Shown piece after piece: positions 48,112 through 52,539 of a DNA stretch of 64,000 nt; the first letter of the stretch is position 1; the number at the start of each line of letters is the position of its first letter. The translations under genes and the position numbers were made by a program. Location of the stretch: contig VGFQ01000004.1 in the NCBI GenBank assembly GCA_016868815.1, positions 124,001-188,000 of the forward strand. Direction: 5' to 3'. The notes under the pieces are model-generated. The model saw nothing but the letters and a program-made list of their open reading frames with translations. It searched no databases and was not told the origin of the DNA. This DNA comes from Bacteroidota bacterium. Lineage in GTDB: Bacteria; Bacteroidota; Bacteroidia; Chitinophagales; Chitinophagaceae.

Positions 48112-50145
48112 TTACCGGCCGTCCGTCGACAGGCGCAGGAAGTCATCCATCTGCAACGGGTCGACGGCGGGGTTGAATGGCCAATTCGCCTCGCTGCGAA
48201 GCAGATCCCGCCATCGCCGTCCGAGTGCTGTAGCGGAAGAGGCGTTGGGTAGTAGCACATAGATGGCGACCTCTGTGATGCGGTCGTTCAGCATCAGCCC
48301 GCCACCCGACGCAAGGGTGTAGGCCATTCGTCGAAGGCCGTCCACTTCCAACTTCCAGAGTTGCCAGGAATCGCTTACCCAATCGGGCACTTGGAAGCGG
48401 AGGGCTGCTGTTCGGTCGGGGGTAAAGACGAATGTCTTGCTGTCCAGATCGGCGCGGTAACGGAGGTCGAGGGCGAAGAGTAGGATACCATCAGGGGCAA
48501 CGAAGGTCGACACATCCCAGTCGGGCCCTTCGGACGTCGCTAGACGCTTGTAATACCATTGAGCGCCTTGCAGGTAGAACGGTTCTAGGAGACGCACCTC
48601 CCGGCCGATGCGCTGCATGGGGGCGAGCAGTTCGGGGAACATCCTGAGGGATTTGTAGGATAGATTGAACCAGTAGAGGCTGGTGATGCCGCTGGCGAGG
48701 GCGTGGTAGGCCTGGCTACGGAGTTCGGATGCCGTTGGCGACCTGCGTCTTCGGCCGCCGTAGACCTCCCAACCTTCATGCGGCCCTTGCGACCAATATG
48801 CGATCGGCAAGGGCCTGTTGAGGGCTTTGAGCGATCGGGTCATCGTACCGATGGTTTCTAGGGGCGCCCCCCATCCGATGCGTTGCCCGTTCCATCTGTC
48901 GTAGGCCCGCCAGTCATCGGCAGAAGGGGCGCTGACACGATAGGCATCAAAGTGGGGGTAGTCGGACAGGCCGGCGTAGAACCGCCATATCCGCTCTTCG
49001 CTGTGGGTGAGGGTGGTGGGGATGCGGGCGGCCGCGTAGGGCAGTAGTTGCCGGCTGACAAGCTGCGGGTCGACGGGCCTTCCACCTCCGTACTGCGGTT
49101 CACCGAGGAATTCGATACCGTGAATGCGGGGCAGGAGGCTATCGCGGTCAAAGCGTTGCCAGGGCGTGAGGTGCCCGAAGTATTTGATGGGCCATTTTCG
49201 GAAGAGGCTGTCAACATCGCTGTAGCCGGGCTGGCCGGTGTAATGTGCGGTGTTGACGTAGAGGGATTGCAGGGTCTGTCGGAAGTGGGTGTTGATCAGG
49301 GCAGGCCGATTCTGAATGGCACCATTAGCCCAGCCGCCGCTGATATCAAAGGCTTCCTTGCGGAGCTTCATATAAGCCCATAATTCGATCCTTGCACCTT
49401 TGGCATCTGAGAGTCGCAGCTGGATGGCGGTGTTTACGGACCTGAAACGGTCTGACTGGAATTGCAGCAAACATCTACCCCGGGCGCGCAGCCGCCTATG
49501 AGATGGCAGCGTAAGGCTGGGTCGCAACGGCTGCCCGGGGAAAAGGAATTGCCAATCCCCTTCGGACTGTGGCTGCCAAAGGATCATGTCATCAACCTGC
49601 CATTCTGTATCTGAGTCATTCACTAGGTGCAGGGTGGCTTTCGAGGGCAGGAGGGCGTCCGCCGGACCGGTACAGGTTAGGGAGGCGATCCATGTGGATG
49701 GTGTCGTGTCGGCAAGGGTCGTGTCAAGGTCGGCTGTCTGCAGGTGAAAGCGCCCACCCCGCAGCCAGCAGGTATCCTTTCCGTTGAACTGCCAGACCAT
49801 AAGCGCTCCGGTAGGGATGACGGACGGGAAGGATGTGTCCTGTTCGGGGAACCGGTACCAGGAGAGCCGGCCTTCGGCATGCCACTGGTCGGGTGAGATG
49901 CCATTGATGCGGGCGGAGCGGTTCCCGGCCATGGTCAAGGGATGGGTAGCTCGGTTCCGTATGAACAGCTGGTAGCGGGCCGACAGTTCCGCTCCGTGCG
50001 GGACTCGGTAACGCATCTCAGATTCGATGCTGTGTCCGACCCGGTGGAGCCCTTCTACGCGGAGGTTGGATTGTGTGTTTCCCTTGCTTGCCGTGGCCAG
50101 CATGATGGCCCATATCAGCAGGATTCGGCAGGGGTAGAGGCTCAT
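48112..50145 (-). CDS. Secreted 677-aa protein, possible glycoside hydrolase (TIM-barrel-like), not assigned
   Basis: A signal peptide (about 5-25) is followed by a beta-rich N-terminal half (carbohydrate-binding-like, with LTLPSHRRLRARGRCLLQFQ) and, from about 270, a segment with barrel-like strands: HGIEFLGEPQYGGG, HFDAYRVSAPSADDW, LPIAYWSQGPHEGWEV, and SGITSLYWFNLSY, the last two typical of strands 6-8 in clan GH-A-like proteins. A C-terminal beta domain ends the protein. Acidic residues at FLGEP and GPHEGWE are candidate catalytic Glu, but I cannot name the family. It is convergent with the oxidoreductase gene and probably part of the sugar-use region. Confidence 0.8.
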   Translation of the reverse strand: MSLYPCRILLIWAIMLATASKGNTQSNLRVEGLHRVGHSIESEMRYRVPHGAELSARYQLFIRNRATHPLTMAGNRSARINGISPDQWHAEGRLSWYRFPEQDTSFPSVIPTGALMVWQFNGKDTCWLRGGRFHLQTADLDTTLADTTPSTWIASLTCTGPADALLPSKATLHLVNDSDTEWQVDDMILWQPQSEGDWQFLFPGQPLRPSLTLPSHRRLRARGRCLLQFQSDRFRSVNTAIQLRLSDAKGARIELWAYMKLRKEAFDISGGWANGAIQNRPALINTHFRQTLQSLYVNTAHYTGQPGYSDVDSLFRKWPIKYFGHLTPWQRFDRDSLLPRIHGIEFLGEPQYGGGRPVDPQLVSRQLLPYAAARIPTTLTHSEERIWRFYAGLSDYPHFDAYRVSAPSADDWRAYDRWNGQRIGWGAPLETIGTMTRSLKALNRPLPIAYWSQGPHEGWEVYGGRRRRSPTASELRSQAYHALASGITSLYWFNLSYKSLRMFPELLAPMQRIGREVRLLEPFYLQGAQWYYKRLATSEGPDWDVSTFVAPDGILLFALDLRYRADLDSKTFVFTPDRTAALRFQVPDWVSDSWQLWKLEVDGLRRMAYTLASGGGLMLNDRITEVAIYVLLPNASSATALGRRWRDLLRSEANWPFNPAVDPLQMDDFLRLSTDGR

Positions 50146-50223: not shown

Positions 50224-50264
50224 AAAAGCTCATAAAAATTGTTTATCAATTTTTATGAGCTTTT
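50224..50264 (-). terminator. 18-bp terminator hairpin for the tRNA-like RNA
   Basis: AAAAGCTCATAAAAATTG (50224-50241) and CAATTTTTATGAGCTTTT (50247-50264) form a perfect 18-bp stem with a 5-nt loop. On the minus strand it is followed by a T8 run, an excellent factor-independent terminator 8 nt past the tRNA-like 3' end. T4 on the plus side makes it possibly bidirectional. Confidence 0.85.
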
Positions 50265-50271
50265 CTATGTG

Positions 50272-50465
50272 CTGTAGGGGGAGGAGTCGAACCTCCACGA
50301 GGACGTTAGCCGCTGCACAAGATTGTAGAGGGTGCTACCCTCAACCTACTGGTGGTCAACCCCAGTCGGTCCGCACGTCTGCGGATCGGCGTTATGCAGT
50401 GTTTATCCGGGAATCCCCACCCTCGAGACAAGAGGGCATGTCTGCCAAGATTTCATCACCCCACA
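50272..50465 (-). ncRNA. tRNA-like RNA with an inserted four-way-junction domain (194 nt)
   Basis: Minus-strand fold, read directly. Acceptor stem TGTGGGG (50465-50459) with CCCTACA (50279-50273), 7 bp including one G-T, then G73 and CAC. D arm: ATG/CAT stem with a 13-nt loop containing GG (50456-50438). Anticodon-like arm CCCTC/GAGGG with loop TTGTCTC (50436-50420; triplet GTC). Short variable hairpin GGG-ATT-CCC. T arm GGAGG-TTCGACT-CCTCC (50296-50280). Between variable hairpin and T arm sit 112 nt (50297-50408): helix CTGCATAA/TTGTGCAG (50399-50392 with 50320-50313) enclosing hairpins at 50385-50370, 50366-50348 and 50342-50328. It is too long for a tRNA, and I see no tmRNA tag frame or group I intron core. 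Identity unknown. Confidence 0.7.
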
Positions 50466-50497
50466 ATGTAGAAGAACACGATGGCTTTAAGACATGG

Positions 50498-50529
50498 TAA
50501 AATTAGGCTAACTGCCAGATATCTTGCAA
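50498..50529 (-). promoter_or_regulatory. Promoter of the tRNA-like RNA
   Basis: Reverse strand: TTG (50529-50527), 21 nt, then TAATTTTA (50505-50498), one mismatch to TANNTTTG. Transcription would begin near 50491, about 26 nt before the tRNA-like 5' end. The site lies in an AT-rich gap shared with the divergent Lrp gene. Confidence 0.55.
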
Positions 50530-50614: not shown

Positions 50615-51082
50615 ATGGCCGGAAAATTGAATCTTGACAAACTCGACCTCCAGATCATCCACGAGATGATGGAGGATGCAGGCATCTCCTACGCCGACCT
50701 GGGCAAGAAACTTTTCGTTTCGGGCGGCACCATCCACGTGCGCATCAAGAAACTGCAGGAACAGGGCGTGGTGAAAGGTACGAGACTTCATGTCGACCTC
50801 AAACAGCTGGGCTACGACATCACTGCCTTCGTCGGCATCTACCTCGAGAAGAGCTCGCTCTACGACCAGGTCGCCGAAGACCTCCGCAAGATCCCCGAGA
50901 TCATCCGCATCAACTATACCACCGGCAACTACAGCATGTTCCTCGAAGTGGTGGCCCGCGACATCAACCAGCTCCGCAACGTCCTGCACGACCAGCTGCA
51001 GAAGATCAAAGGCATCGAGCGGACCGAGACGCTCATCTCCCTCTCCGAAAGCCTCAACCGCAACGTGCAGGTAGCCCTTTGA
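50615..51082 (+). CDS. Lrp/AsnC family transcriptional regulator
   Basis: A 155-aa regulator. The N-terminal winged helix-turn-helix (LDKLDLQIIHEMMEDAGISY, then KLFVSGGTIHVRIKKLQEQG) is followed by a RAM/ligand-sensing domain with the beta-alpha-beta-beta-alpha-beta layout (DITAFVGIYLEKSS, INYTTGNYSMFLEVVARD). Lrp members bind amino acids or related small molecules and act as dimers to octamers. It lies divergent from the tRNA-like RNA gene and its stop overlaps the next start (TTGA), so it may control both the RNA and the polysaccharide genes. Confidence 0.93.
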   Translation: MAGKLNLDKLDLQIIHEMMEDAGISYADLGKKLFVSGGTIHVRIKKLQEQGVVKGTRLHVDLKQLGYDITAFVGIYLEKSSLYDQVAEDLRKIPEIIRINYTTGNYSMFLEVVARDINQLRNVLHDQLQKIKGIERTETLISLSESLNRNVQVAL

Positions 51083-52539
51083 ACCCCTGTACGGTGGCGC
51101 CCCTACAGAAGAAATTTCTCGGCTCTCTGCTGCTGCTGATCGTACTCAACGCGCTGGTGAAGCCTGCGTGGATCTTCGGCATTGACCGGAACGTCCAAAA
51201 CATCACCGGCTTTGCAGAGTACGGGCGCTACTTTGCCATGCTGGGCTTCTGCCTGGTCTTTGGCGTACTGCTGGATCCTGGACTGAACATCTACCTCAAC
51301 CGCCAAGCTGCCTTGCAGCCGTCGGACCGGGTGGCGCTGTTCTGGGATGTCCTCTATGCCAAGGGCTTTCTATTTGTATTGTATGGCGTCGTCGTTGGGG
51401 CTTTTGCCTGGGCCATGGGCATAGAAGACTTATCCTATCTTTTCCCCTTCGTCGTCTTGGTGATGTTGCTCTCGCTGCTTGGATTCCTTCGGGCCTATCT
51501 CTCCGCGGCGCAACAGTTTCAGCAGGATTCGGTGCTCTCGGTGATGGACAAGGGTATTGTCATCGTAGGGGTGGGGGCGATGGTCCTCTTTCCAGATCTC
51601 ATCGGGCCGGTCACCATCCATCGATTTGTATGGTTCCAATCCCTTGCGATTTTCTGTTCCATTCTGTTGGCATGGGGCTTCATCCGGCGTGCTGTCCACG
51701 GTTTTGGCTTCCGCCTTTTTCGGGGTTTTCGTGGTGAGTTGTTCCGCTCCAGCCTTCCGTTTGCGCTGAATAATTTTCTCATGACACTCATTCTGCGTTC
51801 GGACGGCTTCCTGCTGGAACGCCTCCATCCCTCCGGCGCCTATGAGGCCGGCGTCTATGCCGCTGGCTTTCGGATTCTTGACGCTTTTAGCATGATCGGC
51901 TCGCTGGTCACCGGCTACCTCTTGTCGTACCTAGCGAGGCACTGGCCCGATAAGCTGCTGGTAGAACCTTCGATTGTCATCGCCCGCCGCGGTTTGATCT
52001 GCATGGCGATCCTTCTAGGGGTGGCCGGCAGCGTCATGCCCTCCTATTTTACAGACCTGCTTTACCATCGGTCTGATTCATCGTTGGTAGCCGTGATGTG
52101 GGCGATTTTACTGGCCCTGCCGGGTCTATCACTGGTGAGCATCTATGGTACGATACTGACGGCTGTCGGACATATTGGTACGTTCATCCGGATCAGCAGC
52201 AGCTTTGCCCTCACGTCGGTCGTACTCAACTACCTCCTCATCCCAACTTTGGGGGCCCTGGGTTGCGCCCTGGTGGCCGTTGGCGTAGAGACTGCCTATG
52301 CGATCGCACTGCTGATTGCATCGCGTCGGCTCACAGGCATCGGCCTGCATCCGGGGGAGGGCCTCGCCTATCTGTTTACAGGGCTGATGGGTTTTGGTGC
52401 CCTACGCATCTTTGTATATCTAGGTGCAAACCCGCTCTTTGCCATCGGGATGACAGGGGCCTGCATGGTCGGACTCTTCTATGCCATCCTGCGGATCCGC
52501 TTCCAATTGCCCGGTTGGGAGGAGGAAGGGAAACACTGA
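51079..52539 (+). CDS. Polysaccharide flippase (Wzx/MATE-like)
   Basis: A 486-aa membrane protein with about fourteen helices, of the oligosaccharidyl-lipid flippase superfamily. Arg/Gly-containing segments RSDGFLLERLHPSGAYEAGVYAAGFRILDA match family positions (split here as RSDGFLLERL and YEAGVYAAGFRILDA). It should move lipid-linked glycan units across the inner membrane. No ATG is near the start: TTG at 51079 overlaps the regulator stop by four bases, and GTG at 51094 is the alternative. It is followed by a Wzz-like and a ligase-like gene. Confidence 0.87.
   Translation: MNPCTVAPLQKKFLGSLLLLIVLNALVKPAWIFGIDRNVQNITGFAEYGRYFAMLGFCLVFGVLLDPGLNIYLNRQAALQPSDRVALFWDVLYAKGFLFVLYGVVVGAFAWAMGIEDLSYLFPFVVLVMLLSLLGFLRAYLSAAQQFQQDSVLSVMDKGIVIVGVGAMVLFPDLIGPVTIHRFVWFQSLAIFCSILLAWGFIRRAVHGFGFRLFRGFRGELFRSSLPFALNNFLMTLILRSDGFLLERLHPSGAYEAGVYAAGFRILDAFSMIGSLVTGYLLSYLARHWPDKLLVEPSIVIARRGLICMAILLGVAGSVMPSYFTDLLYHRSDSSLVAVMWAILLALPGLSLVSIYGTILTAVGHIGTFIRISSSFALTSVVLNYLLIPTLGALGCALVAVGVETAYAIALLIASRRLTGIGLHPGEGLAYLFTGLMGFGALRIFVYLGANPLFAIGMTGACMVGLFYAILRIRFQLPGWEEEGKH

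Follow-up and report, generated by a model that had tools for sequence, protein, structure and literature searches.

A tRNA-like RNA with an aspartate anticodon is encoded divergently from a regulator gene in a Bacteroidota genome, and the question that this locus raises is what such an RNA would do beside such a regulator. We analyzed a 64,000-nt stretch of contig VGFQ01000004.1, called the window below. A preliminary description of the locus had proposed a new structured RNA or tRNA mimic, divergent from an Lrp regulator. The first proposal is supported, since the RNA lies outside Rfam, is conserved and covarying, and is carried by phages as well. The divergent gene does belong to the Lrp/AsnC family; it is closest to AsnC, and this is a key functional clue.

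Structure of the RNA and of its family

The features of the locus are given in Table 1. The body had been described as 194 nt with a 7-bp acceptor stem; the stem holds, and the covariance-model match sets the length at 195 nt. The minus strand indeed shows the D arm with GG, the loop TTGTCTC with the triplet GTC, the T arm with TTCGA, and the discriminator G. The sequence GGG-ATT-CCC, which had been drawn next to them as a small variable hairpin, is not conserved. Instead, GGGG pairs with CCTC, and this stem covaries in homologues (GAAG/CTTC, GAGG/CCTC, and GGAG/CTCC). The insert, which had been placed between that hairpin and the T arm, actually belongs to the loop of a long variable arm of the class II type.

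Table 1. Features of the locus, in positions of the window
Feature	Position	Strand	Remark
tRNA-like RNA, whole body from the acceptor 5′ end to C74	50271..50465	−	195 nt; covariance model R1, 128.5 bits, E 1e-34
Acceptor stem 5′ strand TGTGGGG	50459..50465	−	7 bp with 50279-50273; family comparison
D arm, tRNA-Leu-like, GG present (ATG AAATCTTGGCAGA CAT)	50438..50456	−	Compared with host tRNA-Leu sequences
Anticodon-like arm CCCTC-TTGTCTC-GAGGG	50420..50436	−	Loop TTGTCTC, triplet GTC
G34-U35-C36, aspartate anticodon	50427..50429	−	C38 at 50425; identity set from PMC9976931
Variable-arm stem 5′ strand GGGG	50415..50418	−	Pairs with 50299-50302; compensatory changes
Conserved internal-loop strand GGATAAAC	50401..50408	−	Alignment
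Inner helix 5′ strand CTGCATAA	50392..50399	−	8 bp with 50313-50320; compensatory changes
Conserved motif GGGTTGACCAC within the variable-arm extension	50352..50362	−	Exact in 94/216 distinct copies, relaxed in 132
Inner helix 3′ strand TTGTGCAG	50313..50320	−	Pairs with 50399-50392
Conserved internal-loop strand (G)CTAAC	50304..50312	−	Alignment
Variable-arm stem 3′ strand CCTC	50299..50302	−	Pairs with GGGG, 50418-50415
T arm GGAGG-TTCGACT-CCTCC	50280..50296	−	TTCGA present
Acceptor 3′ strand CCCTACA, discriminator G73 (50272), and encoded C74 (50271)	50271..50279	−	Family comparison
Terminator-like A+T-rich hairpin, then T8	50226..50262	−	16 bp, -18.3 kcal/mol, z -9.5
AsnC-like regulator	50615..51082	+	Divergent from the RNA; PF01037; top PDB hit E. 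coli AsnC (2cg4)

Within this loop, the 8-bp helix is real and covaries, whereas the three hairpins that it encloses in the window are lineage-specific; relatives have them in reduced form or lack them. As first described, a second cloverleaf would precede the T arm. This is not the general anatomy of the family, since the extension varies and is almost missing from the short members (109-125 nt), which keep approximately 25-40 nt in it. Across the family, the internal loop of the extension (GGATAAAC/CTAAC) is conserved, and the motif GGGTTGACCAC is often present as well.

At the 3′ end, CAC does stand in place of CCA. However, this is not unusual: host tRNA genes likewise encode N73-C74 and mostly not CCA, and thus the ending of the RNA is normal for this genome. 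The terminator-like hairpin and T8 are also present, but the hairpin has 16 bp and not 18 bp, and a consensus promoter/terminator scan of the region listed nothing, this hairpin included. The long ORFs flanking the locus, 48112-50145 (−) and 51079-52539 (+) of the window (677 and 486 aa), had no Pfam match at E 0.001.

The single-sequence folding energy of the window RNA was ordinary (z -0.99, not significant). The proof of the structure therefore rests on comparison. When 32 pairs were scored across 50 diverse sequences, 97.3% of the cells were paired versus 87.1% in shuffles, and 185 cells were changed on both sides versus 49 in shuffles. Sixteen of the 32 pairs had changed on both sides, and slid versions of the structure dropped to 49-62% paired. 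The strongest covariation was observed in the variable-arm stem and the inner helix. The check for homologues and covariation that had been suggested thus revealed a large family, in which the outer and inner helices show compensatory changes. In the acceptor stem, U1-A72, G2-C71, and U3-A70 are near-invariant. The family is a class II cloverleaf derived from tRNA-Leu, whose long variable arm holds an insert in its loop.

Known RNA classes and distribution

An Rfam search had also been suggested, and no family reached its gathering score; the best sub-threshold matches were irrelevant. The RNA had been said to match neither tmRNA nor tRNA-Sec, and this was borne out by the lack of hits for either. 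With the RNA copies, neither RF00023 nor the tmRNA search of ARAGORN gave a hit, no tag frame is present, and the anticodon arm is kept. tRNA-Sec and other known Rfam classes were rejected in the same way. ARAGORN and RF00005 did not recognize the copies as tRNA. No described family corresponding to this RNA was found in Rfam or in the searched literature, made up of open papers other than bioRxiv preprints.

The covariance model R1 separates the true members (85-152 bits) from tRNA-Leu (67 bits or less). It matches host tRNA-Leu genes at 47-53 bits (E 6e-10 to 1e-11), with a homologous class II fold and D arm. The discriminator A73 of tRNA-Leu is absent from the family, in which G73 and C74 were found in 216/216 distinct copies. 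In tRNAs, U33 and a purine at position 37 are near-universal. The family copies have any of T, C, G, or A at position 33 and usually T at position 37. With these rules broken at both positions, the RNA is, as far as its bases tell, not a normal decoding tRNA. A substrate for queuosine modification was also considered and is unlikely because U33 varies. An ordinary or relic tRNA with an insertion, whether a decoding tRNA or a pseudogene, would account for the homology to tRNA-Leu. This explanation is barely credible: U33 and R37 are lost, the tRNA searches gave no hits, and the deep conservation with covariation, the invariant loop, and the tandem copies stand against it. Covariation and distribution contradict it.

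When 299 genomes belonging to the same order were searched by BLAST, 163 gave matches, often 2-6 in tandem, and the weakest matches include partial ones. Relatives at 78-85% identity were among them. A short exact pattern was found at 120 or more loci, in genera including Chitinophaga, Dyadobacter, Cyclobacterium, Algoriphagus, Fulvivirga, and Niabella, and matched 32 IMG/VR contigs. The RNA was thus found in more than 100 Bacteroidota genomes and 32 viral contigs. With R1, 42 carriers were counted among 392 genomes of the phylum by reading the match list. Under our working labels for families, carriers were 13/15 in f1, 5/5 in f19, 8/8 in f28, 8/11 in f23, 3/3 in f30, and 2/3 in f29, and 3/3 in f68, which belongs to another class; none in f25 or f24 was among the matches listed. 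A 77-nt possible degenerate member with the loop CTATCTC (66 bits) lies at L263:4338-4414 (−) in genome G365.

On several viral contigs, the RNA gene is located inside tRNA arrays that also hold tmRNA, and many phage copies are solitary. The large contigs L178, L182, L187, L194, L197, and L199 of IMG/VR have such arrays, in which tmRNA genes (tags, for example, DVELSTMTFEDAMAFVGADYAVAA) stand beside the tRNA-like RNA. No match was detected in INPHARED phages queried with one viral copy or in PLSDB plasmids queried with the window copy, and no asnB was present in the RNA-carrying viral loci. The phage copies in tRNA clusters beside tmRNA genes would suit a new translation factor, for example in ribosome rescue or hibernation, that resembles tmRNA in its tRNA likeness and its place in phage tRNA arrays. 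We consider such a factor very unlikely, as the tag frame is absent, the full anticodon arm is retained, many phage copies are solitary, and the association with GatB and AsnC described below would have no reason.

Identity bases and genomic associations

The strong aspartate identity set consists of G73, G34, U35, C36, and C38, and bacterial tRNA-Asp carries G1-C72 as an aid to AspRS (PMC9976931). Bacterial GatCAB reads U1-A72 (PMC4206432). In 83 copies found by BLAST or the model and parsed by script, U35, C36, C38, and G73 were present in 83/83 and G34 in 79/83. In 11 unparsed copies from the same searches, GTC with C at position 38 was read by eye. The 157 distinct bacterial and viral copies selected by pattern are biased at positions 34-38 and were left out of these counts. 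The pair 1-72 of the RNA is U-A, unlike the G1-C72 of tRNA-Asp; U1-A72 was present in 214/216 distinct copies and in 83/83 of the parsed set. The minor AspRS determinant G10 is absent, position 10 being mostly A or T. Thus, the RNA appears to combine aspartate identity with an amidation signal.

In 4/83 parsed copies, position 34 was C, C, U, or A, and three of these four are still linked to an AsnC-like gene. The CUC, UUC, or AUC triplets of these four copies speak for a rival reading, in which the RNA carries another amino acid or serves another pathway, being charged by SerRS, or by GluRS with amidation to Gln in the C34/U34 lineages, and feeding a non-ribosomal product. G73 and the long variable arm also fit SerRS. 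The SerRS determinants C72 and C11-G24 are absent, however (table in PMC9976931), and GluRS wants G1-C72 and U2-A71. Since either enzyme leaves the invariant U35, C36, and C38 and the AsnC-like neighbor unexplained, a carrier of this kind is quite improbable.

The regulator encoded in the window matched E. coli AsnC (2cg4) at 113 bits and Lrp at 50 bits in PDB. With the NCBIfam AsnC model (NF008384) it scored 161 bits, under the cut-off of 227, versus 59 bits for Lrp. Lrp proper was therefore rejected as the neighbor, AsnC fitting far better on both scales. A divergent AsnC-like gene adjoins the RNA in the window and in 119/184 bacterial loci across two classes, at a spacing of 99 to approximately 200 nt, and no other neighbor family occurs in more than 21 of these loci, of which some are redundant and some are on contigs that stop near the gene. 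An AsnC-like protein was present in all RNA carriers tested. Two non-carriers of the same family (G035 and G082) are without it, and the f23 non-carriers G300, G413, and G628 retain it. The AT-rich word AAATATTTG was found in 29 of the 39 intergenic regions that separate the AsnC-like gene from the RNA gene, versus 0.7 expected, the regions being related, and AAATATTTG/CAAATATTT is a candidate AsnC operator.

Two further observations concern these neighborhoods. In 21 loci (L010, L013, L019, and 18 others), the next gene downstream in the same orientation encodes a TrmB-like tRNA methyltransferase, as judged by eye from its sequence; plain synteny is a possible reason. In the RNA-negative genome G347, an AsnC-like gene is divergent from an E. 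coli-type asnB (L269:2054-4187). As a general rule for RNA-negative relatives, the AsnC-asnB pairing was rejected, because only G347 showed it among the inspected neighborhoods.

We surveyed 48 genomes for co-occurrence. All 24 RNA carriers contained GatB. For the class alone, the counts were 21/21 carriers versus 0/18 non-carriers (Fisher 1.6e-11, phylogeny ignored), and both states occurred within one genus, G071 having both RNA and GatB and G214 neither. In other classes, the non-carriers G301, G307, G310, G316, and G322 have GatB. Genome G365, in which the only copy is the degenerate one, has GatB and asnA without GlnRS and was excluded from the count. AsnRS was present in all genomes of the class, and GlnRS in all but G000, G453, G648, and G365. 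For ordinary charging, these genomes thus do not need GatCAB. AsnA or E. coli-type AsnB was found in 2/24 carriers versus 11/18 non-carriers, where AsnB typing is a reading of match patterns. Longer AsnB-family genes (approximately 600-670 aa) occur in most RNA-positive genomes. G310 possesses GatB, AsnRS, and GlnRS, and no AsnA, AsnB, or detectable RNA.

The AspRS and GatCAB features, the AsnC linkage, and the co-occurrence with GatB would also fit if the RNA were a regulator or scaffold. In that case, it would bind AspRS, GatCAB, or both and act as a decoy, a sensor, or a platform for assembly, and GatCAB would produce Asn on ordinary tRNA-Asn through a relaxed AspRS. Host tRNA-Asn also has U1-A72, and regulators might be bound by tandem copies whose extensions differ. 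Nevertheless, a scaffold need not retain G73-C74 in every copy. Furthermore, AspRS in those RNA-positive genomes in which it was inspected lacks His at the position where this residue presumably marks one relaxed AspRS, which we take as a lead only. We regard a regulator or scaffold as unlikely.

A predicted carrier for asparagine synthesis

On balance, we favor the reading that the RNA serves asparagine synthesis as a dedicated carrier, tRNA-like but non-decoding, with charging by AspRS, amidation by GatCAB, and control by AsnC. The transcript would be matured in the fashion of tRNA, its 3′ end being completed to CCA. AspRS would read G34, U35, C36, C38, and G73, and load aspartate. Since the dedicated RNA itself carries the aspartate anticodon, a discriminating AspRS would suffice. 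GatCAB would then read U1-A72, which true tRNA-Asp lacks, and convert the RNA-bound Asp to Asn, as this pair and the co-occurrence with GatB suggest. Because the anticodon would read Asp codons, the RNA has to stay out of decoding once it is charged with Asn; its exclusion from translation is in keeping with the bulky variable arm and with the rule-breaking bases at positions 33 and 37. A putative releasing step would free Asn for use by AsnRS. Expression of the RNA gene would start in a promoter region that also serves the divergent AsnC-like regulator, and thus Asn supply probably controls the RNA gene. The phage copies, in tRNA arrays or alone, presumably raise the Asn supply of the host, and this is the weakest step.

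Several points weigh against the carrier reading. The variants at position 34, the absent G10, and U1-A72 where tRNA-Asp has G1-C72 may weaken recognition as an AspRS substrate. Given the long AsnB-family genes, RNA-positive genomes may have other Asn sources. AsnC-like genes occur without the RNA (G300, G413, and G628), and G310 has GatB without the RNA. GatCAB could act on host tRNA-Asn instead.

Why bacteria with both AsnRS and GlnRS keep GatCAB has been raised as a question, with the suggestion that the enzyme is possibly vestigial (PMC4206432). Our judgment is evenly divided on the wider proposal, namely that a non-decoding tRNA mimic has amino-acid biosynthesis as its sole job, replaces asparagine synthetase under an AsnC-type regulator, explains GatCAB beside AsnRS and GlnRS, and serves phages as an auxiliary metabolic RNA. 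If this is true, the retention question is answered for Bacteroidota, an RNA is dedicated to making an amino acid, and annotation has missed a widespread RNA gene that is a metabolic carrier instead of a decoder. Phage auxiliary genes would also gain a metabolic RNA. The carrier prediction is sharp: one RNA, two known enzymes, and one base pair.

The RNA resembles tRNA-Leu in the D arm, the long variable arm, and the T arm, and differs from it in the Asp-type loop, G73 for A73, the unusual bases at positions 33 and 37, and the large variable-arm extension. With tRNA-Asp it shares G34, U35, C36, C38, G73, and G2-C71, but it has a class II body and U1-A72 and is predicted to be non-decoding. Like tmRNA, it is tRNA-like and occurs in phage tRNA arrays; unlike tmRNA, it has no tag reading frame and retains the anticodon arm. 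In E. coli, the AsnC-type regulator asnC is divergent from asnA, a gene of asparagine supply. The arrangement here is alike, but the partner gene is an RNA. In Staphylococcus, non-decoding tRNA-Gly isoacceptors serve cell-wall synthesis; there, too, a tRNA is reserved for a non-ribosomal task, although the amino acid, structure, and pathway differ. Another close system is tRNA-dependent Asn synthesis by AspRS and GatCAB on tRNA-Asn (Thermus, Deinococcus, and Staphylococcus; proposed for Bdellovibrio), for which the same two enzymes and U1-A72 recognition are predicted here, and which presents the same puzzle of GatCAB beside AsnRS and GlnRS (PMC4206432). In contrast to that system, the RNA described here is dedicated, non-decoding by prediction, equipped with an Asp anticodon, and linked to an AsnC-like gene. 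The predicted pathway would count as a variant of tRNA-dependent Asn synthesis, and its novelty would be the dedicated non-decoding carrier.
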